From NCBI GenBank assembly GCA_015491865.1, contig WFVD01000008.1, positions 62,001-126,000 of the forward strand: a stretch of 64,000 nucleotides of DNA, written 5' to 3'. The position numbers and the translations under genes were made by a program. The stretch comes from Gammaproteobacteria bacterium (GTDB taxonomy: Bacteria; Pseudomonadota; Gammaproteobacteria; SZUA-140). Below the pieces are notes generated by a model. The model saw nothing but the letters and a program-made list of their open reading frames with translations. It did no database searches and was not told where the DNA came from. Below are positions 1,806 to 16,399 of this stretch, piece by piece (within the stretch, counting starts at the first letter, position 1; each line of letters begins with the position of its first letter).

Positions 1806-2294
1806 TTAGTCGCGGAAATTCTCATACTGCAGCGGCAGGTCGAGATCAGACTCACGGAAAAGCGCAATTGCCTGCTGCAGGTCGTCACGCTTCTTTCCGG
1901 TAATGCGCACTTTATCGCCTTGAATTGCCGCCTGCACCTTAAGCCTGGACTCCTTCGTGATCTTCACCAGCTTTTTGGCAAACAGAGCATCGATACCCTG
2001 CTGTAGGTTGATTGCCTGATGAACCTCTTTTCCCTGAGTGATAGCATTTTCTGTTTTAAGGGAGGAGAGGTCAACACCGCGTTTTGAGAGTTTGTTGTGG
2101 AGGATGCTGGTCATCTGCTGTAGCTGAAAAGTACTCTCCGCATGCATCATGATGGCCGACTCTTTTTCCTTCAACTCAAAACGGGCACTGCTCCCCTTGA
2201 AGTCAAAACGGGTACCAACTTCACGGTTGGCCTGATCAATCGCATTGTTGACCTCATGCAGATCAACTTCTGATACAACATCAAATGATGGCAT
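1806..2294 (-). CDS. yajQ: YajQ family nucleotide-binding protein
   Basis: A 162-residue cytoplasmic protein that matches the YajQ/UPF0234 family along its whole length: M-P-S-F-D-V-V-S-E-V-D at the start, R-F-D-F-K-G-S in the first ferredoxin-like half, and K-V-R-I-T-G-K-K-R-D-D-L-Q near the end. Members bind cyclic di-GMP in Xanthomonas and Pseudomonas, and nucleotides or RNA elsewhere; the ligand here is not known. It lies 34 bases downstream of the histone-fold doublet gene on the same strand, so the two are probably co-transcribed. Confidence 0.93.
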   Translation of the reverse strand: MPSFDVVSEVDLHEVNNAIDQANREVGTRFDFKGSSARFELKEKESAIMMHAESTFQLQQMTSILHNKLSKRGVDLSSLKTENAITQGKEVHQAINLQQGIDALFAKKLVKITKESRLKVQAAIQGDKVRITGKKRDDLQQAIALFRESDLDLPLQYENFRD

Positions 2295-2328
2295 CTGATC
2301 GCTTCCTGTTCAGTTGGTGTAACCTGCC

Positions 2329-2709
2329 TTAAGGCAGGTCACGATCCATCACCGTCTTGCGGCGATCTTTCTGCGCATTGGCAATGGCTTCATCACAAAG
2401 TTTTGCAACGATACCAGAGAGGGCTGGAACAACATTACCCGCGGTGCTCATACCGTCTGATTTCTCTTTGATGTAAGCCTTAAGCTTGGAGGTGACAACC
2501 AGTGGGTCGTGCGAGCCGGTATCGCTGTTGAAATCGCGATCCATCACCGTTTTGCGGCGATCTTTGATCGTGTTTTCAATGGCGGTATCACAGCGGGCAC
2601 GGATCAGATCTGAAAGCGCAGGGGCGAAATTGCCAGCAGTGCTCATGCCATCAGATTTTTCTTTAATGTAGCCTTTGATTTTAGAGATTACCACCAATGT
2701 TTCACTCAT
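2329..2709 (-). CDS. Tandem (doublet) bacterial histone-fold protein
   Basis: A 126-residue protein built from two copies of one unit, residues 5-60 and 70-125, repeated with a 65-residue (195-base) period. Each copy has a short helix (S-K-[IL]-K-x-Y-I-K-E-K), a loop (S-D-G-M-S-T-A-G-N), a long helix and the ending D-R-R-K-T-V-M-D-R-D. That ending closely resembles the R-K-T-[IV]-K-A-E-D-I segment of archaeal histones, and the preceding helices match in order and length; helix 3 is almost absent. The start ATG at 2709 has a GGAG ribosome site; a longer frame upstream has none. Histone-like DNA or protein binding is inferred from the pattern. The gene appears to lead an operon with yajQ. Confidence 0.75.
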   Translation of the reverse strand: MSETLVVISKIKGYIKEKSDGMSTAGNFAPALSDLIRARCDTAIENTIKDRRKTVMDRDFNSDTGSHDPLVVTSKLKAYIKEKSDGMSTAGNVVPALSGIVAKLCDEAIANAQKDRRKTVMDRDLP

Positions 2710-2912
2710 ATTTACTTCTCCAAAAAGTATTAAATAGTTGACGGCCTGTATCAGATAATGCCGATGGCCCTCGATTGTACGCCATTCAGAAATTAAATCA
2801 CATCGCAAAACAGGTGGAAATTAGCGCTATTTTAAAGGTATGAAGAGTCTCAGCGATGGTGAATAGAAGCAGAAAGCTTTGGATCGTCGTCCGCCGGCTA
2901 GAGGAGGTGGGA

Positions 2913-2930
2913 ATGAAAAAGGTGCTCTGA
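2913..2930 (+). CDS. Possible five-residue leader ORF
   Basis: The sequence AGGAGGTG at 2902-2909 is a near-perfect anti-16S match, four bases before an ATG that opens only five codons (M-K-K-V-L, stop 2928-2930). A 10-bp inverted repeat follows 8 bases later and the next gene begins at 3093. This is the layout of a translated leader or attenuator, but a chance match cannot be excluded. Confidence 0.25.
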   Translation: MKKVL

Positions 2931-2937
2931 CCACATT

Positions 2938-2978
2938 ATCAGGGAAGGATTGGTTGAGATGCTTTATACTTCCCTGAT
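2938..2978. repeat. 10-bp inverted repeat
   Basis: ATCAGGGAAG (2938-2947) is exactly complementary to CTTCCCTGAT (2969-2978), with 21 bases between. It could form a long-loop hairpin in the leader of the 3093 gene or be a paired operator. No T-run follows. Confidence 0.55.
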
Positions 2979-3092
2979 GATTGCGCGCTCTACTTTCTGT
3001 AGCAGAAAATAAAGAACGGCGACTCGCTAGCGCCTGTTCCACTCCCCTCATCAATAAACATTCATGGTTTTCGATAAAAGAGATTAGTGATA

Positions 3093-3404
3093 ATGGCTAA
3101 AACAGATAAATATGTAGGTATTTACAACGAAGTGAATGGTGGCATGACAACCATCGGCAAGCTGATTCGAGATGCCTGGGTTTTCGGAATCATCCCTGAA
3201 ACAGAGAGTTGTGAGGGGTGGAACTATAATCGTGTTAATGAGCTGATGCAGCAGGTGGATGCAGAGTGGGATAAATACGGTTGCATGGTTGGAGAGCTGC
3301 CTAATGAGTTAAGAGCGCGGCATGAGCGTATCCATGGTGCTGCTATTGCTAAAGCCAGAACCGCAGGCTGGAGTGGTGAATTTGAAACGGATGATGAGCA
3401 GTAA
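3093..3404 (+). CDS. Conserved hypothetical protein (103 aa)
   Basis: A small soluble acidic protein with no signal peptide and no membrane segment. It starts A-K-T-D-K-Y-V-G-I-Y-N-E-V-N-G-G-M-T, continues I-G-K-L-I-R-D-A-W-V-F-G-I-I-P-E, and ends with a charged helix and D-D-E tail. The pattern resembles uncharacterised proteins I associate with gammaproteobacteria, but I cannot name a family. The ATG at 3093 is preferred over the in-frame GTG at 3087; the ribosome site (AGAGA) is weak. The gene stands alone, with the histone-fold gene divergent upstream and the lipoprotein gene convergent downstream. Function unknown. Confidence 0.75.
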   Translation: MAKTDKYVGIYNEVNGGMTTIGKLIRDAWVFGIIPETESCEGWNYNRVNELMQQVDAEWDKYGCMVGELPNELRARHERIHGAAIAKARTAGWSGEFETDDEQ

Positions 3405-3459
3405 ATAGTTGAAACAGGCTGGGGTGGCAGGGGATAGGCCAGATAGTGTTTGTACGTAA

Positions 3460-4410
3460 TTAATAGATGGTTTTGCTTGCGATAGATGAAAAATCACTTT
3501 CGACCATAAATTGATCATAGACCGTCATAGCAAAAAAATGAGTCCCTGTTGCCAGGCCGTCTATTTTATATTCGTTCACAGTCGGATCAGCAATATCAAC
3601 GAGAAGGCTTAAATTAGTGGCATCTCTGCCAGAGTATATTTTAAAGCCTGCCAGCTCGCTTAAGGTGATCACCGAGTTATCAACACGCGTTGAGGGGGGA
3701 ACCCAGGATAATGTCGCGCTTGTTGAGGTGACGGTAATGTTAAAACTCGCCAGGGAGGCCTCACTCACCCCGTCGTTCACGAATAGCTGAATATCACTGT
3801 AGGTTCCAACATCAGATTCGGCAGGGGTGCCAGATAAACGTCCGGTAGCTGAGTCAAAGGTCAGCCATGAGGGCCTGTTCAGAACCGAAAATAGCAGGGA
3901 ATTACGGCCATTATTAGTGGCGACTGGAGTGAATGAATAGGCACGGTTTTCTTGGGCGATGAGTGGAGGACTCCCAGAGATTTGCAGTGGCAAGAGGCTC
4001 TTTTCCTCTACCGTGATAGAGAATGGTGGTAACGAGGAGACGTGCACCCCGTCGGATACCGTTACCAATATATCGCTGAACAGCCCTACGTCACTGGAAG
4101 CAGGGGTGCCACTTAACTCGCCAGTGGCAGGGTTGAAGCTTAGCCAGAGGGGTTTATTGGTGATTTGGAATGTGAGATTAGCATTTTCTGGATCTGAGCT
4201 TTCAGGCATAAACTGGTAGCTGCTGCCCGTTGTAATGATGGCGGAAGGAACGCCATTAATTAATGGCGCCAAGTTGCTGTTATCTTTTGTAAGGCTTTTA
4301 GTAATAGTGTCGTTATGATTACCCTGTGTACTGCTGCTACCCCCGCCCCCACAGGCAGTTAACAGCACCAGCAGAGAGGTGTACGCTATCGATAATTTTA
4401 GATTTCTCAT
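3460..4410 (-). CDS. Lipoprotein with two putative Ig (He_PIG-like) domains and a fibronectin-III-like domain
   Basis: A 316-residue exported lipoprotein: signal peptide 1-19, lipobox L-L-T-A-C with lipidated C20, then a glycine/serine linker. Two homologous beta-sandwich units follow. Each carries a P-A-T-G-x-L-S-G-T-P or S-A-T-G-R-L-S-G-T-P motif followed by S-D-V-G-x-[FY]-S-D-I and a [SN]-D-G turn, typical of putative Ig/cadherin-like domains. The C-terminal ~80 residues resemble a fibronectin type III domain (L-S-W-V-P-P-S-T-R ... G-F-K-I-Y). The start at 4410 is chosen because the signal peptide begins there; the longer frame to 4533 has no signal character. Residue 21 is glycine rather than Asp, so outer-membrane placement is expected. 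An adhesion or surface-binding role is inferred only. Confidence 0.85.
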   Translation of the reverse strand: MRNLKLSIAYTSLLVLLTACGGGGSSSTQGNHNDTITKSLTKDNSNLAPLINGVPSAIITTGSSYQFMPESSDPENANLTFQITNKPLWLSFNPATGELSGTPASSDVGLFSDILVTVSDGVHVSSLPPFSITVEEKSLLPLQISGSPPLIAQENRAYSFTPVATNNGRNSLLFSVLNRPSWLTFDSATGRLSGTPAESDVGTYSDIQLFVNDGVSEASLASFNITVTSTSATLSWVPPSTRVDNSVITLSELAGFKIYSGRDATNLSLLVDIADPTVNEYKIDGLATGTHFFAMTVYDQFMVESDFSSIASKTIY

Positions 4411-4566
4411 AACATCCTTGTTTTGATATGTTTGATGGCTTAATGAGATTATCGTGCAAAGGTCTCTATCGGTATAAAGTTTATAGGGTCTTTTTTCGTA
4501 GCAGAAAATAACACGTAAGGCATGTGAATTCATAGCCTGAAATCAGAAATGAGAGGTATGTCACAA

Positions 4567-5895
4567 TTATTTTTGATTATGGTCATTTAACTGACTGGCG
4601 TGGGGCAGATGCACCTCCTCAACTTGTCCGGCATTAAGGTCATGAAATGTTTCAATTGAGATATTATTTTCAGATTTAGCGATAATGGTGGTGATCGCGG
4701 CATCACCGGTAACATTAACAGCGGTGCGCATCATATCAAGCAGGCGATCAACTCCCATGATCAATGCGATTCCCTCTACAGGTAGACCGACCTGGTTCAA
4801 TACCATTGCGAGCATAATCAAACCAACACCGGGCACTCCGGCGGTTCCGATGGAAGCGAGCACCGCCATGCCGATTACGGTCAGGTACCCCATCAACCCA
4901 AGGTCGATGCCGTAGACATTCGCGATAAAGACCGTTGCGACACCCTGCATAATGGCGGTGCCGTCCATATTAATGGTGGCACCAAAGGGCACCACAAAGG
5001 AGGCAGTCGAGTTATCAACCCCAAGACGTTTTTCGACACTGCGCAGCGTTACCGGGATCGTCGCATTTGAGCTTGAGGTGCTGAAGGCGAAGATCTGGGC
5101 GGTGCGCATCTTGCGTAAAAAGATGAGTGGATCGAGTTTTGAAAAGAGTTTAAAGATCACCATCAAGGTCCCGCCTGCATGCAGTAGCAGTACAATTGCG
5201 ACCACGGCAAAATAACTGATCATCGGCAGAATCAGACCTAGCCCCTGTAGTGAAAAAGTTTTTGCCATCAAAGCAAACACACCGTAAGGGGCGATATGCA
5301 TCACCACCGTGACCACCTGCATCATCACCTCATTAAGCCGTTCGGCCGCTTCAGCAATTGGGCGAGCCTTTTCACCGACCATCAAAATAGAGACAGCAAA
5401 TAGAATGGTAAAAAAGATAATCTGCAGCATATTGCCACTGGCGTAAGCGGCGACAGGATTGCTTGGCACAAGGTCGATAAAGACCTGTGTGATCGGCGGT
5501 GCTGCTGGAGCCGTAAAGTTACTGGTGGCGCTATTGCTCAGTTCAAAGCCCTGGCCTGGGCCGACAAGTGAGGCCACCGCGATCGCAAGGGAGATCGCAA
5601 GTGCGGTAGTTAACAGAAACAGTAAAAAAGCCTTTAGTCCGACACGCCCGAGTTTATTGATATCCCCAAGCCCGCAAACACCACAGATAAGCGAAAAGGT
5701 GACTAATGGAACAACCAGCATCTTCAGCAGGTTGATGAAGATTGCACCAGCAACATGAAACAGGCCATTAACAAAATAGTCCTGTACAAAAGCGACATCA
5801 CTGGCGAGCGCATTAATCAGGCTACCGAGGATTAACCCGGCACACATCCAGATGAGTATCTTCGTTGTCATGTTCTGTTTTGCCTGCATGGTCAC
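4567..5895 (-). CDS. Dicarboxylate/amino acid:cation symporter (SDF/DAACS family)
   Basis: A 442-residue inner-membrane transporter with about eight helices plus re-entrant loops. Family motifs are in order: serine-rich hairpin 1 (F-S-T-S-S-S-N-A-T-I-P-V-T), N-M-D-G-T in TM7, hairpin 2 (V-P-G-V-G-L-I-M-L), and D-R-x-L-D-M-M-R-T-A-V-N-V-T-G-D in TM8. The TM8 arginine binds the side-chain carboxylate of aspartate/glutamate in GltPh, so glutamate or aspartate is a likely substrate; C4-dicarboxylates remain possible. It follows the LVIVD gene by 49 bases on the same strand and may be co-transcribed. The coupling ion (Na+ or H+) cannot be read. Confidence 0.92.
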   Translation of the reverse strand: MTMQAKQNMTTKILIWMCAGLILGSLINALASDVAFVQDYFVNGLFHVAGAIFINLLKMLVVPLVTFSLICGVCGLGDINKLGRVGLKAFLLFLLTTALAISLAIAVASLVGPGQGFELSNSATSNFTAPAAPPITQVFIDLVPSNPVAAYASGNMLQIIFFTILFAVSILMVGEKARPIAEAAERLNEVMMQVVTVVMHIAPYGVFALMAKTFSLQGLGLILPMISYFAVVAIVLLLHAGGTLMVIFKLFSKLDPLIFLRKMRTAQIFAFSTSSSNATIPVTLRSVEKRLGVDNSTASFVVPFGATINMDGTAIMQGVATVFIANVYGIDLGLMGYLTVIGMAVLASIGTAGVPGVGLIMLAMVLNQVGLPVEGIALIMGVDRLLDMMRTAVNVTGDAAITTIIAKSENNISIETFHDLNAGQVEEVHLPHASQLNDHNQK

Positions 5896-5944
5896 TCCAC
5901 TGTTGCCGCGTTTACTGGATTAGACTTGGTCAAAAAGTAAGGGG

Positions 5945-8900
5945 TTACGGTGTCTCATTGTGCTTCTGTTTCATCGCCTTTTGCAGGTTCTCTAACATCA
6001 GGCCGGGTTTACCAAACGGCTTCATTTCAAGCTTGATCGCGTTATATAAGGTTACGCTTCTGTTTTCATCATCGGTGACTAGCAGATGATAACCCCCCAG
6101 CGGCATCGTACTGGGCAGTGTTGTTGTCAGCACTCGTTTTTCCGCATCGATAACCAGAGTGCTCTCCGGCAACGGCTGAAGTGCAATGATATTAGTGCTG
6201 CCCGAAAAATAGAGTACGCCCCTGTGGATATTGAAGCGGTCAATCTCACCGTTGGTGTGGTAGCGGCCCAGCAGCTTCCACTGTGGCGCTTCGCTGATAT
6301 CGTATTGATAAACATAGTGCCCATCGACCGCTGCATAGAGTGTTGCGCCATCAATCTGAAAGTCACTGACGCTCATTGATATGGGGATCTGCCCCACAAC
6401 ACGTGGGGTTGCCGGTGCCGAAATATCCACCATTAAAATGCCATCACCAGGGCGGTGAAGATAGAGCGTAGTGCCCTCTTTACGCAGCAGTCCTGCGAGA
6501 CCCGAAAGCTTGAATGAATACAATCTTTTAAGTTTAGCGGGGTCATCACTGTCGATAATCTCAAGGCGCTGCTCATCGCTGGTGAGATAGATGGTATTGC
6601 CCTCATTCCAGAGAGCGATCAGTGGCACGTGGTAAGTGGTGCGCAGGAGCGGCGCCTGCGGTTTTGCCACATCAATAACGGTAACAGCACTGCCTTGTTC
6701 GGCGATATAAAGTTGGTCATCTGCGACGCGAATGATATCGGCGCGATGGCCAAGTTTGATCTGTTTTAACAGCTCTGCCTGAAACGGGTTGGTGATATCG
6801 ATAATAGAAATATATTGATTCTCCTGCGCAACATAGGCGTAGTGACCATCGATGGCAAGGTTGAGTGCGGCGCTTCCAAGATTGACCCCGGTAAACCAGG
6901 TTGGGTTGAGCGGGTTATTGATATCAAAGATCTGTAGCCCATCAATGCCGCTGGCGGTAAAGAGATAGTTATCGCGCGCGATGGCCTGCTGAACCGGGTC
7001 GTTACCCAGATAGCGGCCTAACAGCGCTGGGCGGCTGGGGTTACTGATATTAAGCACGGCAAGTCCGCCCCACCAGTCAAAAATATAGGCGTGTTCATCT
7101 TTAAGGCGCAATCCCCATGCGGCACCCTCTGTGTCGTAACTACCAACGATATGAGGCTGTGCCGGGTCACGAATGTCGATCACCTGGAGACCCGCTAGCC
7201 AGTCGGCAATATAGAGGTGGTTGTCCTTGCGCACGATTCCACGTGCATTACCCGGCGTTGCGACATGACTAATAGCCGTTGGGTTGGTGGGGTCGCTGAT
7301 ATCGACAATATAAACCCCATTGTCAAAAAAGGTGACGAAGGCGTAGTCACCATCAACCACCACATCTTCAGCGGCGCCACCGGGGGTGAATTCTCCGATC
7401 TGTTTCGGGGCCGTTGGGTCTCGGGTATCAAAGATCAGCAGCCCCGTTTCATCATCGGCAATAAATGTCAGTTCGCCACGCACCTGAATTCCCCACGCTT
7501 TACCGGCGGTGTTTGTGCTGCTGAGCAGGGTTGGTGCGCTGGGATTACTGATATCGATAATCTGAAAGCCACCGCGGTGGCTGGCCAGGTAGAGTCGGTT
7601 ACCTTGCAGTTGTGGAATATAGGCGAGCCCCGCAGTCTGTAATGTTGAGACAGGTTTGGGTTGATTGGGATCACTGACATCGACAATCAAAAGCCCGTGA
7701 TCATCATCGGCCACATAGGCATAGTCATCGCGTACAACGATACCCTTAGGGGAGCCCGCTGTTTTAAGGCTTGACAGTAACTGTGGTTGATGAGGCTCCG
7801 TGATATCGTAAAGATGAATACCGGAGAACCAGTCCGCCACGTAGAGAATATTGTCGCGAATAAAACCGCGTCGCTGGCCGCCGAAGTTAACCCCCTGGCC
7901 AAAGTCCAGCCCCTCATTACTAATCTGTGGCGGCGGGGTAGAGAAATCATATTCAAGTAGTTCATCAACAGAAATAGCAAACAGCCGCTTGCCCTGTTGT
8001 GTGAAGCTTATTAGCTGGCGCTCACTCTGTTCTGGATCACTATAGGTTGCAATGATTGATGGCATGTTCGGCATGCCGGCATCAAGCAGTGCGAGGTGGT
8101 TTTCATCATTCAGCACCATCACCCTTTTGCCCACAACATCAACACGAGTCACGTTGCCCGTTTTCTGGTGACTGCCGAGCCAGTCAAAGCGGTCTGGAGT
8201 GGCGATGTCAAACAGTGTTACTCCGGCTGTTGTGGTGGCAACATAAAGCACACCTTCACTCTGTTTAAGGCTGACGGCCGCATCGCTGGTAACGTATCGG
8301 CTGCGCGTGGTGATAGCCGTTGGCTCACTGCTATCAAGCACCGTGATACCGCTATCACCCATCGCAAGATAAATGCGTGACTCGCTAATAGTGAGATCAT
8401 AGCCCTCACCTTCAAGAGCAGTGGTTGATAGTAGCTGTGGATTGTTGGTTTTACTGGTATCGAGCGCCAGCAGGGTGTTGTTGGCGAGCAGAATAGCAGC
8501 AAAGCCGCTGGCCAGCACATCGAGGGCGATGATCGCATCGGTCGTTGTATAGCGACCGATCACCGCAGGTGAGGCTGGGTGCTGAATGTCAACAATCGAT
8601 AGCTGCATATCACCAGTAACATAGAGGCGGTTATTAATGGCGCGCAGCTGTTTTGCTGTGTGTGGTAGCTGCAGACGTGCGACTACGGTTGGTGCGATCG
8701 ATTCAGCAACATCAACCACGACTACCCCACCATTTGTGGTAGCAATAAAGGCGTGGTTGTTGGCTAGCGCCAGGTCAAACGCCAGCTCATTCTGGAGGGG
8801 CAGGCGCTGTTTAAGGTAGGGGCCGCCCGGTATCAGTAGCGCGTTTTTTACTCTGCTGAGCCTGTCGCTGGCAGAGTCGAGATCGACCTCGATGATACGC

Positions 8901-9034
8901 TGCTTACCCGCATAAAGGGTGACATTTTCAATGGGGGCGCTGCCCGCAGGCACAGCAGTTGTGAACAGCCATAGCGCGATGCAGACAGAGAAGAAACGAG
9001 CCATTTTAAAGGGTGCTTTGGTTAACGTGGTCAT
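5945..9034 (-). CDS. Secreted LVIVD-repeat beta-propeller protein (1029 aa)
   Basis: A large exported protein. After a signal peptide ending near G-S-A (about residue 32), nearly the whole chain is LVIVD-type blades of roughly 40-45 residues, recognisable by repeated G-L-x-[IV]-x-D-[IV]-x-x-P-x-x-P motifs, for example G-L-L-I-V-D-V-S-D-P-N-Q-P and G-V-Y-I-V-D-I-S-D-P-T-N-P. I estimate well over a dozen blades, enough for two or more propellers. No enzymatic motif is visible. A second possible start is ATG 9004, directly before the hydrophobic segment; neither start has a Shine-Dalgarno. It lies between hemL (83 bases upstream) and the symporter gene. LVIVD proteins are generally extracytoplasmic and uncharacterised. 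Confidence 0.9.
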   Translation of the reverse strand: MTTLTKAPFKMARFFSVCIALWLFTTAVPAGSAPIENVTLYAGKQRIIEVDLDSASDRLSRVKNALLIPGGPYLKQRLPLQNELAFDLALANNHAFIATTNGGVVVVDVAESIAPTVVARLQLPHTAKQLRAINNRLYVTGDMQLSIVDIQHPASPAVIGRYTTTDAIIALDVLASGFAAILLANNTLLALDTSKTNNPQLLSTTALEGEGYDLTISESRIYLAMGDSGITVLDSSEPTAITTRSRYVTSDAAVSLKQSEGVLYVATTTAGVTLFDIATPDRFDWLGSHQKTGNVTRVDVVGKRVMVLNDENHLALLDAGMPNMPSIIATYSDPEQSERQLISFTQQGKRLFAISVDELLEYDFSTPPPQISNEGLDFGQGVNFGGQRRGFIRDNILYVADWFSGIHLYDITEPHQPQLLSSLKTAGSPKGIVVRDDYAYVADDDHGLLIVDVSDPNQPKPVSTLQTAGLAYIPQLQGNRLYLASHRGGFQIIDISNPSAPTLLSSTNTAGKAWGIQVRGELTFIADDETGLLIFDTRDPTAPKQIGEFTPGGAAEDVVVDGDYAFVTFFDNGVYIVDISDPTNPTAISHVATPGNARGIVRKDNHLYIADWLAGLQVIDIRDPAQPHIVGSYDTEGAAWGLRLKDEHAYIFDWWGGLAVLNISNPSRPALLGRYLGNDPVQQAIARDNYLFTASGIDGLQIFDINNPLNPTWFTGVNLGSAALNLAIDGHYAYVAQENQYISIIDITNPFQAELLKQIKLGHRADIIRVADDQLYIAEQGSAVTVIDVAKPQAPLLRTTYHVPLIALWNEGNTIYLTSDEQRLEIIDSDDPAKLKRLYSFKLSGLAGLLRKEGTTLYLHRPGDGILMVDISAPATPRVVGQIPISMSVSDFQIDGATLYAAVDGHYVYQYDISEAPQWKLLGRYHTNGEIDRFNIHRGVLYFSGSTNIIALQPLPESTLVIDAEKRVLTTTLPSTMPLGGYHLLVTDDENRSVTLYNAIKLEMKPFGKPGLMLENLQKAMKQKHNETP

Positions 9035-9117
9035 GGCATAGGGGGTTCATACTCGATACCACCCAGGCTTGGGGTTGTGCGTTGTCGCCTCACGTCACCA
9101 GGCCGGGGTGGTCGCAG

Positions 9118-10398
9118 TTAAAGTTTTGACAAAACGTTTTCAGCTGAGACCAGTGTGCTCTTGATATCACGGTGTCCATGTGCCGCCGAGACAAAGCCCG
9201 CCTCGTATGCAGAAGGGGCAAGGTAGACACCATCTTCCAGCATCGCATGGAAGAACTTCTTAAAACGTTCAATGTCACATTCGGTCACCTGCTTAAAGGT
9301 GGTGACCTTCGCCTCAGTGGTAAAGAAAAGACCAAACATACCGCCGACAGTGTTGGCCGTCATCGGGATGTCGAACGCCTTGGCACGTGCCAGCATCCCT
9401 TCAACCAGATGTTCAGTGCTAGAGACGATCCCTTCGAAGACGCCCGGCTTTTCAAGTTCAGTCAATGTTGCCAGCCCCGCCGCCATTGCGATCGGGTTAC
9501 CCGACAGGGTGCCTGCCTGGTAGACCGGTCCGAGTGGCGCGAGCTGTTCCATAATGTCACGCCTGCCACCGAAGGCGCCGACGGCGAGGCCGCCGCCAAT
9601 CACCTTGCCAAGGGTGGTCATGTCGGGCTTTACCCCGTAGTGCTGCTGCGCACCACCGAGGGAGACACGAAAGCCGGTCATCACCTCATCAAAGATTAGA
9701 ACAGTGCCGTGTTGATCACACACTTCACGCAGCCCTTCAAGGAAACCCGGCACAGGGGGAATGCAGTTCATGTTGCCCGCTACAGGTTCAACAATGATGC
9801 AGGCGACCTGATCACCAATCTCAGCAAAGGTTGCCTTTACCTGCTCGATGTCATTAAAGGTGAGGGTGACGGTGTGTTCCGCGAGTGATGCCGGTACGCC
9901 CGGAGAGGTTGGCACGCCCAGCGTTAAGGCGCCGGAACCGGCCTTCACTAATAAGGAGTCGGAGTGGCCGTGGTAGCACCCCTCAAATTTAACGATCTTG
10001 TCGCGACCTGTGAAACCGCGTGCGAGACGAATCGCACTCATCGTCGCTTCAGTGCCGGAGCTGACCATTCGTACCATCTCGATCGAGGGGACCAGCTCGC
10101 ACACCTTTTCAGCCATGACGGTCTCGATGCGGGTGGGGGCACCAAATCCGAGGCTGTTATCAACCGCCTCTTTGACGGCGCGAGTCACAGCCGGGTGGGC
10201 ATGGCCAAGAATCATCGGCCCCCATGAGGCGACATAGTCGATATATTTGTTGTTATCTTCATCGAAGGTGTAGGGGCCTTCACCGCGCTTTAAAAACAGG
10301 GGTTCTCCACCGACGCCATTAAAGGCGCGTACCGGTGAGTTAACACCGCCTGGAATATGTTTTCTGGCTTCCGCATAAAGGTCGTGTGATCGAGTCAT
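9118..10398 (-). CDS. hemL: Glutamate-1-semialdehyde 2,1-aminomutase
   Basis: PLP enzyme that converts glutamate-1-semialdehyde to 5-aminolevulinate in the C5 pathway of tetrapyrrole synthesis. Its 426 residues match the usual length. Visible are [11 protein letters not shown] near the N-terminus, [15 protein letters not shown] at 113-127, the PLP-contact segment [11 protein letters not shown] and the Schiff-base K265 in [10 protein letters not shown]. The start has a GGAAAG ribosome site. It lies 32 bases after thiE in a thiD-thiE-hemL run, an arrangement also found in Pseudomonas. Haem made this way would supply the cytochromes encoded nearby. Confidence 0.97.
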
Positions 10399-12110: not shown

Positions 12111-12434
12111 TTACAGGGTAAGAATGAAGTCAACCAGTGTTTCGATGTTTGCATCAGAAACACGTGGTGAGTATGGAGGCATTGGAACGCCACCGGTAAC
12201 GTCATTCCAGTTACCTTTACCGCCTTTTTTAACTTTAGCAATCAGTGCCGCTTTATCGCCAGCGCCGTATTTCGCACCAACATCTTTCCAAGAAGGGCCA
12301 ACCACTTTCTTTTCAATGCTGTGACATGCCAGACAGCCACTCTTTTTAGCAAGATCTAGTGGATCTGCAAGTGCCTGGCTTGATCCCAGGACTAAAAGGG
12401 CCGCGGCAGGAACGCTTAACCAACGTGCTTTCAT
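12111..12434 (-). CDS. Periplasmic mono-haem class I cytochrome c (c551/c8-like)
   Basis: A 107-residue exported electron carrier. A signal peptide ends at A-L-A-D (about residue 24), the haem c motif C-L-A-C-H lies at 34-38, and the expected axial methionine lies in V-P-M-P-P-Y at about 89-91. Mature size (~83 residues) and the G-P-S-W-K-D-V segment fit the c551/c8 group that feeds nitrite reductases, cytochrome c peroxidases or terminal oxidases. ATG 12434 has a GGAG site seven bases upstream and is preferred to the frame start at 12452. It is divergent from the di-haem/FGE-like gene and shares the regulatory interval with the TGTGA-N6-TCACA site. The redox partner is unknown. Confidence 0.93.
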   Translation of the reverse strand: MKARWLSVPAAALLVLGSSQALADPLDLAKKSGCLACHSIEKKVVGPSWKDVGAKYGAGDKAALIAKVKKGGKGNWNDVTGGVPMPPYSPRVSDANIETLVDFILTL

Positions 12435-12569
12435 ACTTTTCTCCTCATTCAAGGGTATTTAATGGATAAAACAGTCACAGATTCTCCCCTCTGAAAACCT
12501 GTAACACCCCCCCTATATGTGAATTTCTCTCTACAAAAAATTCCAAAAAAGGGTGGACGAAGCAATCGT

Positions 12570-12583
12570 CTCACCATGGTGAG
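12570..12583. promoter_or_regulatory. 14-bp perfect palindrome, possible operator
   Basis: CTCACCATGGTGAG is a perfect 14-base palindrome about 135 bases upstream of the cytochrome c start. CCATGG recurs at about 12604. I do not recognise the binding protein. Confidence 0.3.
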
Positions 12584-12673
12584 TATTACCAGCGGTCTTT
12601 TATGCCATGGTCAATTACGGGTGTCAAGTTTGGTTCAGCGAGCGTTCAGTTATGCTGTAGTTAAAAATTCCTG

Positions 12674-12695
12674 ATTTGTGAGATTTGTCACAAAT
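12674..12695. promoter_or_regulatory. CRP/Vfr-type binding site
   Basis: Arms ATTTGTGA and TCACAAAT are perfect 8-base complements six bases apart and contain exactly TGTGA-N6-TCACA, the consensus core of CRP-family sites. It lies about 240 bases from the cytochrome c start and 213 bases from the FGE-like gene, so the target promoter is not clear. The FNR core TTGAT is not matched. Confidence 0.6.
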
Positions 12696-12907
12696 AACGT
12701 GGTAAAACCCCTTTTCATACTCTGATTTTCTGCTGCCATAACGGGCGACGCCCCTGATTTCGAATGATCTTGAATTTTTGCTGAATAGGCGATCTAATGA
12801 CAATCGAAAATACCGATGATATTCATCGGTTATATCTGTATTAATTGTGTGGTTTTATATCTGTTTTCTAATGTGGAATTGGGTGGCTGTGTTGAGGAGA
12901 AGGAGAG

Positions 12908-13978
12908 ATGTGGGAGCGAAACCGTCTTGAGAGTTGGCTAACTACTCGCCAGGCAGAAGCGGCGAGCTTTACATGGACCGCGATGGCGATATTGTTGCTT
13001 GTGTCGCAATGTGTGAATGCTGACGATAGCAGGGCTGCAATGCAGGAGTGCGAAAGTTGCCATACATCAGCTGGCCACCCGCATATTAAACGAGCGACAC
13101 TAAAGGGGTGCATCGCTTGCCATGCGGCCAACAATGGGGGGCGAGAGATGACAAACGGCGGGCTTCGCTCCCCACACCCTGAGATAGAGGAAGCCGCCGT
13201 AGAAAAAACAGGAGAGTACGCACCGGGGATGTCGCTGCCAATGACCTATGAAGGGACGCGCATCGGCAGCGCACCCAACGAAATGGTGCTTATCCCGGCC
13301 GGTGAATTCACCATGGGCTCAGGTCAGCGGCTGCCAGATGAAGGGCCGGAGCACCGGGTGTTTCTGACAGATTACTGGCTGGATCGTTATGAAGTCACCA
13401 ATCTGCAATATAAACAGTTTATTGATGCAACGGGGCGGAAGTCACCCCTCCATTATGAGAACAGGACATTTCCGCCCGGCCTGGCGGACCACCCTGTGGT
13501 TTATGTCAGCTGGTATGACGCCAATGATTATTGTGAATGGGCGGGTAAACGCCTGCCGACCGGCGAGGAGTGGGAAAAGGGCGCGCGAGGGGGGGATGCG
13601 AGAACTTATCCATGGGGGGATGAGTTCGACATAACACGCGCCAATATGCCCCAGCGCTGGCAGACGCTAAAAGAGCAGGGGAGTACAACACCGGTTGGAG
13701 CCTTTAAAGAGGGGGTCAGTCCGTATGGTCTGTACGATATGTCAGGCAATGTCTGGGAGTGGACATCATCGTGGTACGAGCCATATCCCGGCAATAAAAA
13801 ACCGACAGAGAATTACGGAAAAACCTATAAAACCCTGAAAGGGGGGTCGTGGTGGAACTGCAGTTTTTACAAATGTGGCGCATCGGCACCTGCATTTAAT
13901 CGATCGTTCTTTCTGCGTACAACGAGAAACAAAAGTTTTGGTTTCCGCTGCGCTAAAGATCCTGGAGGTGAAACATGA
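12908..13978 (+). CDS. Di-haem c / formylglycine-generating-enzyme-like fusion protein
   Basis: A 356-residue exported protein. A hydrophobic segment at about 21-36 ends at V-N-A, serving as signal peptide or anchor. Two haem c motifs follow: C48-E-S-C-H52 and C68-I-A-C-H72. Residues 124-350 form an FGE/SUMF1-type domain (M-V-L-I-P-A-G-E-F-T-M-G-S, D-R-Y-E-V-T-N-x-Q-Y, P-V-V-Y-V-S-W-Y-D-A, R-L-P-T-G-E-E-W-E-K, S-G-N-V-W-E-W, G-F-R-C-A). C318 and C323 form a C-x4-C pair just after G-G-S-W, where true FGEs carry their copper-binding cysteines, but shifted by one residue. No sulfatase gene is visible, so sulfatase maturation is not implied; a periplasmic redox role is inferred. Its stop overlaps the next start by four bases. 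Confidence 0.85.
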   Translation: MWERNRLESWLTTRQAEAASFTWTAMAILLLVSQCVNADDSRAAMQECESCHTSAGHPHIKRATLKGCIACHAANNGGREMTNGGLRSPHPEIEEAAVEKTGEYAPGMSLPMTYEGTRIGSAPNEMVLIPAGEFTMGSGQRLPDEGPEHRVFLTDYWLDRYEVTNLQYKQFIDATGRKSPLHYENRTFPPGLADHPVVYVSWYDANDYCEWAGKRLPTGEEWEKGARGGDARTYPWGDEFDITRANMPQRWQTLKEQGSTTPVGAFKEGVSPYGLYDMSGNVWEWTSSWYEPYPGNKKPTENYGKTYKTLKGGSWWNCSFYKCGASAPAFNRSFFLRTTRNKSFGFRCAKDPGGET

Positions 13979-14955
13979 AACGACAGGCGATGACTATTTT
14001 GTTCTGCATGATGGCTGGATTGATGGGTAGCGCGATAGGCGAGAGCGGGTTAAAGGGTTCAGCCGTCGATATCGACAGAGGGATGAAACTGATACCTGCA
14101 GGCGAATTTATAATGGGGAGTAACAAGGCTGATGTGAAAAACGCATCGGGCGAATATGGCAATAGCAAACCGTGGTATCTGGATGAACACCCGGAACATC
14201 GTGAATTTGTAGGCAGTTTCTATGTCGATGAGCATGAAGTCACAAATGGTCAGTACCGGGCGTTTGTGGCGGAAGGGAAATATGCACCACCGCAATACTG
14301 GGTTAACAACGGGTATCTGTTAAGTATGCGCCGGAATAAGGTAGAAAAGGTACCAGTAGAAAAATTAAGAACCCTGGTTGCCAAAGTCTTCAGGCTTGAT
14401 ATTGATACGCGCAGCATGACAAAGCCAGAGCTGCTGGCGGCAATAGATAAACGCCTCGCCTATATGGACGAGTTACCGGTGGTTTATGTGAGCTGGTATG
14501 ATGCAAAGTCTTATTGTGAATGGAAGGGAAAGCGGCTGCCGACAGAAGCGGAGTGGGAGAAAGCGATTCGCGGCACAGGCGGGCTTGAGTTTGCCTGGGG
14601 TAATCAATGGGTGTATGGGCAGAGTAATACGGGCGAAGAGCTATGGGATGATGGCGTAGCACCGGTGGGGTCCTACCCGGGTGATGTATCGCCATACGGT
14701 GTGTTCGATATGAGTGGTAACGTCTCTGAGTGGACGGCAGACTGGTATCAGCCATATGCAGGTTCAGATTATAGTAGTGATGATTTTGGTGAAACCTTTA
14801 AGGTGGTGAAGGGGGCCGCCTGGGGCGGTGAAGGTCATTATGCGCTGAAGTTATTTCAGCGCGGTGCCTATCGATTTAACCTCAGGCCGACATCACGCCA
14901 TGAAGACCTCGGCTTTCGCTGTGCCGCGGATGTGAAAATGGTATCAGCAGACTAA
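13975..14955 (+). CDS. Exported FGE/SUMF1-like protein without catalytic cysteines
   Basis: A 326-residue protein with an N-terminal signal peptide (about 1-22) and one FGE-like domain from residue 36 (M-K-L-I-P-A-G-E-F-I-M-G-S) through V-V-Y-V-S-W-Y-D-A, R-L-P-T-E-A-E-W-E-K and S-G-N-V-S-E-W to G-F-R-C-A. Where an FGE has G-G-S followed by its cysteine pair, this protein has K-G-A-A-W-G-G-E and no cysteine, so FGE chemistry is not expected. About 50 extra residues rich in Lys/Arg/Leu are inserted in the first half (about 99-150). It is translationally coupled to the upstream di-haem fusion (ATGA overlap), which suggests that the two proteins act together. Confidence 0.88.
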   Translation: MKRQAMTILFCMMAGLMGSAIGESGLKGSAVDIDRGMKLIPAGEFIMGSNKADVKNASGEYGNSKPWYLDEHPEHREFVGSFYVDEHEVTNGQYRAFVAEGKYAPPQYWVNNGYLLSMRRNKVEKVPVEKLRTLVAKVFRLDIDTRSMTKPELLAAIDKRLAYMDELPVVYVSWYDAKSYCEWKGKRLPTEAEWEKAIRGTGGLEFAWGNQWVYGQSNTGEELWDDGVAPVGSYPGDVSPYGVFDMSGNVSEWTADWYQPYAGSDYSSDDFGETFKVVKGAAWGGEGHYALKLFQRGAYRFNLRPTSRHEDLGFRCAADVKMVSAD

Positions 14956-15039
14956 AGGGTATGACGGCGGCGCATTTCACCGCTGTTCACGTCCATTAAT
15001 TGAATTCAGGACGAACTGCCCCTAAGATGGCGGCTCCAT

Positions 15040-15045
15040 TATAAT
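15040..15045 (+). promoter_or_regulatory. Possible -10 element of the Kelch gene
   Basis: A perfect TATAAT lies 17 bases before the Kelch ATG, which would give a very short leader. No good -35 is seen at the right distance and the ribosome site is weak, so read-through from the FGE-like genes (106-base gap) is equally possible. Confidence 0.25.
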
Positions 15046-15061
15046 AGATACGGATGCCGCA

Positions 15062-16399
15062 ATGACGCGCCAATACAGCACTATTTTTCTGCTTGCACTA
15101 CTCCTGACGGGCTATATTAAACAGACACTGGCAGAAGAAACCGTGTGGATTGCTGGCTGGCAACAGACGAGCGAAATGAATACGGCTCGCGCAGGTGCTG
15201 TCGTGTTACAGGTGAATGGTGTTATCTACGCTATCGGTGGGGTCGATGGGCGTAATTTTCTGAGCACCTCCGAGTTTAGCCAGATAAGGGCGGACGGCTC
15301 GCTTGGCCCGTGGCAGCGCAGCGCAATCCTGAATGATGCCCGTGGTTTTTTTGATGCCGTTGAACACAACGGTTATATCTATGTGGCAGGGGGCGGCAAG
15401 GGTGACAACGGCAAGGTGTTGTTACGCAGTGTTGAGCGCTCCCGCATCTCAGCGAATGGCGAACTTGAAGGGTGGATAACAGAACGGCACGGGCTTAAGT
15501 ATCCACGTCGTTGTGTAAAGCTGTTTATTGCGAATAACCGCATTTATGCCCTGGGTGGATTTGGTGGGGCGCTGCTTGATTCGGTTGAGAGTGCGCCCAT
15601 CAACGACGATGGCAGCCTTGGCCCGTGGCGTGTAGAGGCAAACCCACTCACCATGACACGCTACATTAACAGCGTTAAATCACTGAATGGTTTTACATAT
15701 GTGATCGGTGGTCATGCGGAGCGCGAAGGTGTCGGTTTAACGGAGGTTGAGTTTACCCGGCCAACGATCGGTGGTGATCTCGTGTGGCAAAACACAGCAG
15801 CGATGCAGCTGCCACGTTACGCACTCTCATCGGTTGCCCACGGTCATCAGCTTTACGCCATTGGTGGACTGAATGGTGCCGTTTACAGCGATAAAATTGA
15901 ACTGGCACAGCAGTTAAGCGGTGGTGAATTAACACCGTGGCGTTACACCACTCCCCTGTCATCGGTACGGGCAAACTTTGGTAGCGTGGTCTATAACGAC
16001 CGTATCTATATTATTGGTGGCACCAACCGTGATGGCTATTATAAAAGCGTTGAATATGCGAGCCTGAATAAGCGGGGTGATATCGGCTTCTGGGGTTCAC
16101 CGCAGCAATTAGACCATTACCAGCAGCAGCAACAGGCGAGATTACTGAAGCCAAAACGGGCACTCCCCAATAGCGGTGTGGTGGCAGAGGTGATTCAGAC
16201 CAAAGCCTATAGCTATATTCGAGTCACAAAAGGGGCTACTGAGCAGTGGCTTGCCGGTTCACGGAGTGACTACAGGGAGGGTGATCGGGTCGAATATAGC
16301 CGTGGGACCACCATGATGAATTTTCATAGCTCGACGCTCAAGCGAACATTCCCGTCTATTATCTTTGTTGAACACCTTCGTCTGGGTGATGAACATTGA
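15062..16399 (+). CDS. Secreted Kelch-repeat propeller with C-terminal NrfJ-like domain
   Basis: A 445-residue exported protein with a signal peptide ending near T-L-A (about residue 24). Residues ~30-350 are six or so Kelch blades of about 50 residues, each with [IV]-Y-[AV]-[IL]-G-G followed by a V-E or K-E strand and G-x-L-G-P-W or G-E-L-x-x-W. After a glutamine-rich linker (Q-Q-Q-Q-Q), residues ~371-445 match the small domain known from NrfJ-type proteins: G-x-V-x-E-V, Y-x-Y-I-x-V, G-D-x-V-E-Y, M-N-F-x-S-x-T-L-x-R-T-F and I-x-F-V-E-H-L. That domain usually occurs beside c-type cytochromes, which fits the haem-binding neighbours. Function unknown; a periplasmic binding or scaffold role is inferred. 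Confidence 0.85.
   Translation: MTRQYSTIFLLALLLTGYIKQTLAEETVWIAGWQQTSEMNTARAGAVVLQVNGVIYAIGGVDGRNFLSTSEFSQIRADGSLGPWQRSAILNDARGFFDAVEHNGYIYVAGGGKGDNGKVLLRSVERSRISANGELEGWITERHGLKYPRRCVKLFIANNRIYALGGFGGALLDSVESAPINDDGSLGPWRVEANPLTMTRYINSVKSLNGFTYVIGGHAEREGVGLTEVEFTRPTIGGDLVWQNTAAMQLPRYALSSVAHGHQLYAIGGLNGAVYSDKIELAQQLSGGELTPWRYTTPLSSVRANFGSVVYNDRIYIIGGTNRDGYYKSVEYASLNKRGDIGFWGSPQQLDHYQQQQQARLLKPKRALPNSGVVAEVIQTKAYSYIRVTKGATEQWLAGSRSDYREGDRVEYSRGTTMMNFHSSTLKRTFPSIIFVEHLRLGDEH

Follow-up and report, generated by a model that had tools for sequence, protein, structure and literature searches.

A dihaem cytochrome c fused to a formylglycine-generating-enzyme fold and its putative partner protein are associated with electron-uptake genes in Gammaproteobacteria

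The formylglycine-generating enzyme (FGE, also SUMF1; PF03781) requires an external reductant that supplies two electrons per turnover, and its physiological electron donor has not been identified (PMC12123546). The Cu(I) cysteines of FGE are Cys336 and Cys341 in human and C281 and C286 in the first row of our plasmid-FGE alignment. SUMF2 (pFGE) is a SUMF1 paralogue without the catalytic cysteines, and the sulfoxide and selenoxide synthases EgtB, OvoA, and SenA have a C-terminal FGE-type domain. For the uptake of electrons from outside the cell, such as from minerals or electrodes, the closest described system is the undecahaem Uet complex, which is known from Tenderiales and Gallionella. Here, we describe a locus at positions 12111 to 16399 of a 64,000-nucleotide stretch of SZUA-140 DNA (the window; contig WFVD01000008.1 of GCA_015491865.1, positions 62,001 to 126,000). 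The source genome (G000; 2.54 Mb, 99.99% complete) encodes in this locus a fusion of a dihaem domain with an FGE domain, here called H, and a second FGE-fold protein without haem, here called F. We tentatively propose an accessory role for H-F in extracellular electron uptake, in which H would be a haem-wired, FGE-like redox enzyme of the thiolate-metal (Cu(I)) type and F its non-catalytic partner.

Four open reading frames (ORFs) were confirmed in the locus, and all four products start with a hydrophobic signal-like segment. A monohaem class I cytochrome c with one CxxCH motif (12111 to 12452, minus strand; Cytochrom_C, 1.2e-8) is followed on the plus strand by H (12908 to 13978; PF03781, 5.7e-63; two CxxCH motifs), F (13975 to 14955; PF03781, 1.9e-55; no CxxCH motif), and a Kelch propeller protein with a presumably NrfJ-like C-terminal domain (15062 to 16399; Kelch_1, 2.8e-26). 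This agrees with a first-pass annotation of the window, which had described four exported proteins, two with CxxCH motifs and two with FGE-like folds, and the coupling that it had reported for the H and F genes is a real ATGA overlap at 13975 to 13978. It had also read the four genes as a single system. The coupling of H and F, which form a near-obligate pair, and the exported redox character of that system stand, but the Kelch gene is dispersed, and the four-gene operon was rejected as a conserved unit since it fails outside the genus. The actual unit is the H-F pair with a dispersed Kelch partner, within a guild of electron-uptake genes located outside the window.

The H-F pair was followed in 80 loci from a scan of 84,980 species, which contain 78 two-haem H genes. 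F lies directly after H in 72 of these 78; among the rest, one H is at a contig end (L112) and one is part of a tandem H arrangement (L114). The hosts include Gallionella, Nitrosomonadales, a "Ca. Tenderia," Chromatiales, and Thiotrichaceae, and the records also comprise biocathode, hydrothermal, and groundwater metagenome-assembled genomes. Each of the 20 genomes available from the genus and family gave a match, which in the least complete one is a fragment, and a sample of 329 genomes of the phylum gave one partial, FGE-only match outside the class. Three H-F pairs account for six of the eight FGE-domain proteins of G000. The pairwise distances of H and F are correlated (r = 0.73; maximum of 0.10 in 1,000 permutations), as expected of partners moving together. 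On the basis of gene order and co-divergence, H and F are very probably partners. When the conservation of the neighborhood proposed by the first-pass annotation was checked, H and F were together nearly everywhere and the cytochrome adjoined H in 10 of the 80 loci, belonging to several families, whereas the Kelch gene adjoins H-F only within the genus.

H consists of a signal segment, a dihaem c domain, and an FGE-fold domain. Its haem c motifs, CESCH (C48 to H52; 13049 to 13063, plus strand) and CIACH (C68 to H72; 13109 to 13123, plus strand), occupy columns that are invariant over 23 aligned homologues. The first-pass annotation had named the loss of CxxCH in orthologues as evidence against itself; both motifs are kept in every one, that is, in 78/78 H genes of the survey. 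The two are usually 19 to 21 residues apart, and most H proteins have one to three additional histidines nearby that could be distal ligands. With conserved CxxCH motifs behind a signal segment, H is predicted to be a c-type cytochrome with covalently bound haem. The FGE domain of all 78 H proteins contains the motif GGSW-W/F-x-C-S-F/Y-Y-x-C-G-x-S-A/S-P. The CxxxxC pair in the catalytic loop, C318-x4-C323 within GGSWWNCSFYKCGASAP (13859 to 13876, plus strand), is invariant in 23/23 aligned homologues and kept in 78/78 H proteins; it has the loop and spacing of the FGE Cu(I) cysteines but is offset from them by one residue relative to GGS. In the alignment of 23 homologues, this loop is one of the best-conserved parts of H. 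The predicted H structure aligns to ToxD, EgtB, CalU17, and FGE with Z scores of 12 to 14.6.

Six plasmid FGEs, aligned with MAFFT and hhalign, served as the comparators for canonical FGE, of which there was none in any locus collected before they were added. H resembles FGE in its fold and in the GNVWEW and GFRC motifs, and its loop after GGS has a Cx4C pair too, one residue out of register with that of FGE. However, H has an N-terminal dihaem c domain and a co-inherited partner, F, and resides in a genome without a sulfatase. The signature RGGSYLCHxSYCNRYR...NTPDSS, present in the six plasmid FGEs, is found in neither H nor F. The equivalence of the H cysteine pair to the Cu(I) pair of FGE is plausible at most, and H may possess an FGE-like thiolate metal site, a proposal that we consider reasonable but short of probable. 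The EgtB, OvoA, and SenA synthases match H and F in the FGE part only, far under the curated cut-offs, and lack the haem c of H. The identity of H with EgtB, SenA, or OvoA was rejected at 117, 102, and 47 bits against cut-offs of 360, 420, and 400, respectively, and membership in the EgtB, SenA, PvdO, and GldK families was likewise rejected by scores far under the cut-offs.

F has the same fold as H, but the CxxxxC pair is present in the loop of 0/72 F proteins; full-length F proteins have a [GS]xGHY-type motif in its place, and in F of the window, the GHY motif at the catalytic-loop position (14833 to 14841, plus strand) is invariant in the F alignment. The F model matches the FGE and SUMF2 folds, with 1y4j among its best matches. 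Like SUMF2, F is a cysteine-less FGE fold beside a cysteine-bearing partner; unlike SUMF2, it is bacterial and exported, with a helical insert and a GHY motif of its own. As a SUMF2-like partner, F may form a heterodimer with H, a partnership seen here as gene pairing and co-divergence. Two other FGE-fold proteins of G000 were noted. One is a solitary F-type lipoprotein without an adjacent H, which has a mutY-like gene and one for a small conserved protein as neighbors (L004, G000:C26:76000-93000, 8395 to 9513, minus strand). The other represents a third kind, without haem or cysteine pair, in a COX1/FixO-like cluster for a cbb3-related haem-copper oxidase (L005, G000:C26:149000-165000, 2170 to 8994); most genomes of the family contain matches that are comparable in size and identity.

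The strongest competing explanation is that H-F is a non-enzymatic scaffold of the electron-uptake apparatus, in which the FGE folds bind proteins as in PorK/GldK, the haems only relay electrons, and the CxxxxC pair is a disulfide or otherwise structural. PorK/GldK and variable-protein lectin folds are also matched at the level of both profile and fold, both proteins are exported, and part of the FGE catalytic signature is missing from H. On the other side, the C318/C323 loop is highly conserved in H, whereas F has the same fold without the cysteines. This combination is more readily explained by an active site than by a structural disulfide, and we regard the scaffold as possible but doubtful.

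Association with electron uptake was examined in 369 genomes taken evenly across the class, 28 of which have H. A UetJ-type undecahaem cytochrome is present in 40 of the 369 genomes and in 27 of the 28 with H (27/1/13/328, for both, H only, other only, and neither, as in all such counts below). For a pentahaem cytochrome, the values are 32 of 369 and 25 of 28 (25/3/7/334). The Kelch protein occurs in 26 genomes, and 24 genomes from ten families have both it and H (24/4/2/339), which ties the two together across genomes (24/28 of those with H and 24/26 of those with Kelch). Fisher tests gave P values of ~1e-29 to 1e-31 for H with Kelch, UetJ, and the pentahaem cytochrome, uncorrected for phylogeny. 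Among the 40 UetJ genomes, 24 have both H and Kelch, 3 have only H, none has only Kelch, and 13 have neither (P = 5e-8, also uncorrected). H-F thus occurs almost only in genomes with electron-uptake genes and may be an unrecognized helper of that lifestyle. Both the pair and the guild are well supported, and H-F probably belongs to the latter.

G000 itself has a Uet-like cluster (C22:5147-16304, L212) on a contig other than that of the window H-F. Its genes encode, in order, a peptidyl-prolyl isomerase, a 598-amino-acid putative porin, two trihaem proteins, a 442-amino-acid protein, a third trihaem protein, two NHL proteins, and an 11-haem protein, a composition that matches the published one of the Uet complex in cathode-oxidising Tenderiales (PMC10734462). 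H is found almost only in UetJ genomes and G000 has a Uet-like cluster, but the Uet subunits reported in the literature searched include neither H-F nor Kelch-NrfJ. Cytochrome c biogenesis-like (ResB/CcsA-like) genes follow the cluster. A second cytochrome cluster on the same contig (L211, C22:42000-61900) comprises propellers, a PAS-GGDEF-EAL protein with CxxCH, a pentahaem cytochrome whose gene is overlapped by that of an NHL lipoprotein, two class I multi-haem cytochromes, and argC. Its relatives, often with ccm genes, were seen in L163 to L166, L172, L174, and L213 to L219, and its pentahaem cytochrome was found only in UetJ-positive genomes (32/32 in the 369-genome sample).

The last ~75 residues of the Kelch protein (16163 to 16396, plus strand) form a separate conserved block in the Kelch alignment and also occur as stand-alone proteins of ~128 to 141 amino acids (G012, G015, G040, G052, G229, and G329). 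The end proposed earlier to be NrfJ-like is therefore a distinct conserved domain, for which that name is provisional, as no Pfam or NCBIfam model matches it. Some of the Kelch matches counted above are Kelch-only paralogues or the C-terminal domain alone; with full-length Kelch-NrfJ only, the overlap is 20 of 28 H genomes and 20 of 22 Kelch genomes. The family has a single conserved cysteine, Cys151 in the window protein (PRRC-x-K, 22/22; 15512 to 15514, plus strand), whereas the Kelch-only paralogues mostly read PRRA and are cysteine free. One such paralogue, which lacks both the C-terminal domain and any cysteine, is encoded at G000:C6:47206-48231 (L177) and is present in many of the same genomes. 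In three other families (f53, f65, and f101), Kelch-NrfJ lies inside a multihaem cytochrome cluster that ends at argC. The cluster includes a monohaem cytochrome and regulator-type propellers, together with pentahaem doubled-CXXCH cytochromes, an NHL lipoprotein, and class I cytochromes with several haems; ccm genes come before it in f65 and f101.

Such clusters raise the possibility that H-F helps to mature or assemble c-type cytochromes or a terminal oxidase and does not itself belong to the uptake route. Kelch-NrfJ accompanies ccmFGHI in other families, and another FGE protein of G000 is located in the COX1/FixO-like oxidase cluster described above. However, neither ccm nor oxidase genes are recurrent beside H-F in the 80 loci, where the recurrent neighbors, named by eye from their sequences, are mostly housekeeping genes (tilS, aspS, accA, nadA, and hemL-thiE-thiD), and we consider this explanation unlikely. 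For the same reason, a function of H-F could not be derived from its neighbors. It could also be that H-F, Kelch, and Uet are independent genes that are simply co-inherited in the same chemolithotrophic lineages, as the lack of linkage between Kelch and H-F beyond the genus and the phylogenetic clustering of the sampled genomes would allow. The ten families with both H and Kelch, their patchy presence over the class, and the persistence of the H-Kelch association within UetJ-positive genomes make this improbable as well. Finally, a genuine FGE that activates sulfatases is suggested by the FGE fold and the CxxxxC pair but is highly improbable, as no PF00884 match was found in the whole G000 genome or in the H-carrying G014, G017, and G018. 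The absence of a sulfatase reported for the locus thus holds genome-wide, and unless there is a sulfatase of an unrecognized family, sulfatase activation by H-F is rejected and the FGE domains serve something else. With both the canonical signature and a sulfatase lacking, H is not classed as an FGE.

In the proposed accessory role, H-F would be a two-subunit envelope redox module within the Uet-type electron-uptake gene set, with H as the catalytic subunit. The metal bound by the cysteine pair of H would be thiophilic and, by analogy with FGE, most likely Cu(I), and the haems would shuttle electrons between the periplasmic cytochrome pool, which in this genus may include the neighboring monohaem cytochrome, and the metal site. 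The haems could thereby be a built-in reductant for FGE-type O2/cysteine chemistry. F would select or hold the substrate without being catalytic, as SUMF2 does for SUMF1. The copper, the chemistry, and the substrate are what we infer here. The substrate might be an exported protein of the uptake apparatus, and Cys151 of Kelch-NrfJ is the natural, if speculative, candidate, being the single invariant cysteine of a protein that is exported and found in the same genomes as the FGE-like H. However, G229 and G329 carry the cysteine-bearing Kelch protein and no H at the threshold used, and modification of Kelch-NrfJ by H-F seems decidedly unlikely. The same low probability applies to the most specific version, in which H would be a haem-wired FGE-type copper enzyme of a previously undescribed kind that receives its electrons from the dihaem domain and, together with F, oxidises the Kelch-NrfJ cysteine to an aldehyde or related residue and so matures the uptake machinery.

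Several observations weigh against this reading of H-F. The cysteine pair of H is one residue farther from GGS than that of FGE, the H loop is two residues longer, neither MAFFT nor hhalign superposes the two pairs, and the CNRYR and NTPDSS signatures of FGE are absent from H. The AlphaFold model of H, built with the 23-sequence alignment, has a predicted local distance difference test score below 50 exactly in the cysteine loop, and its geometry is therefore no basis for testing the site. No F was seen beside four H genes (L072, L095, L104, and L113), and in no locus seen was H-F inside a Uet or pentahaem cluster. Kelch-NrfJ is present without H in two genomes (G229 and G329) and H without Kelch in four. 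Moreover, the Fisher values treat the sampled genomes as more independent than they are, given their relatedness.

The cytochrome gene more likely starts at the ATG at 12434 than at the TTG at 12452, and 455 bases separate it from the divergent H gene. In L065 and L081, the cytochrome remains with H although other genes part it from thiD. The interval contains a perfect CRP/FNR-family-type palindrome, TGTGA-N6-TCACA (TGTGAGATTTGTCACA; 12677 to 12692, plus strand). The palindrome is found at the same place in 6/6 congeners, with zero or one mismatch in the half-sites and a different spacer, and the shared regulatory interval suspected at first is thus real in the genus. The other two H-F pairs of G000 have no CRP-type site upstream, and none was found in the short stretch before the Uet-like cluster. 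Elsewhere in the window, an exported 1,029-amino-acid LVIVD-repeat protein is encoded next to hemL (5945 to 9034, minus strand); it has same-locus homologues elsewhere, one of which is 33% identical (L076).

No named pathway with this gene set was found, in agreement with the first-pass annotation, and no literature description of the fusion or the pair was found, although a 2022 Tenderiales paper that lay outside the search could list these genes. No paper joining FGE, cytochrome, and CXXCH was found, and formylglycine and sulfatase are not mentioned in the Tenderia and Gallionellaceae papers examined. We class H as an FGE-fold protein to which haems are fused and which has a partner of its own. 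A haem domain fused to an FGE-type fold bears on the electron supply of FGE copper chemistry, for which the donor question has been raised (PMC12123546). H-F and Kelch-NrfJ travel with UetJ and are candidates for markers and for parts that electroautotrophy and mineral oxidation may need beyond the porin-cytochrome conduit.

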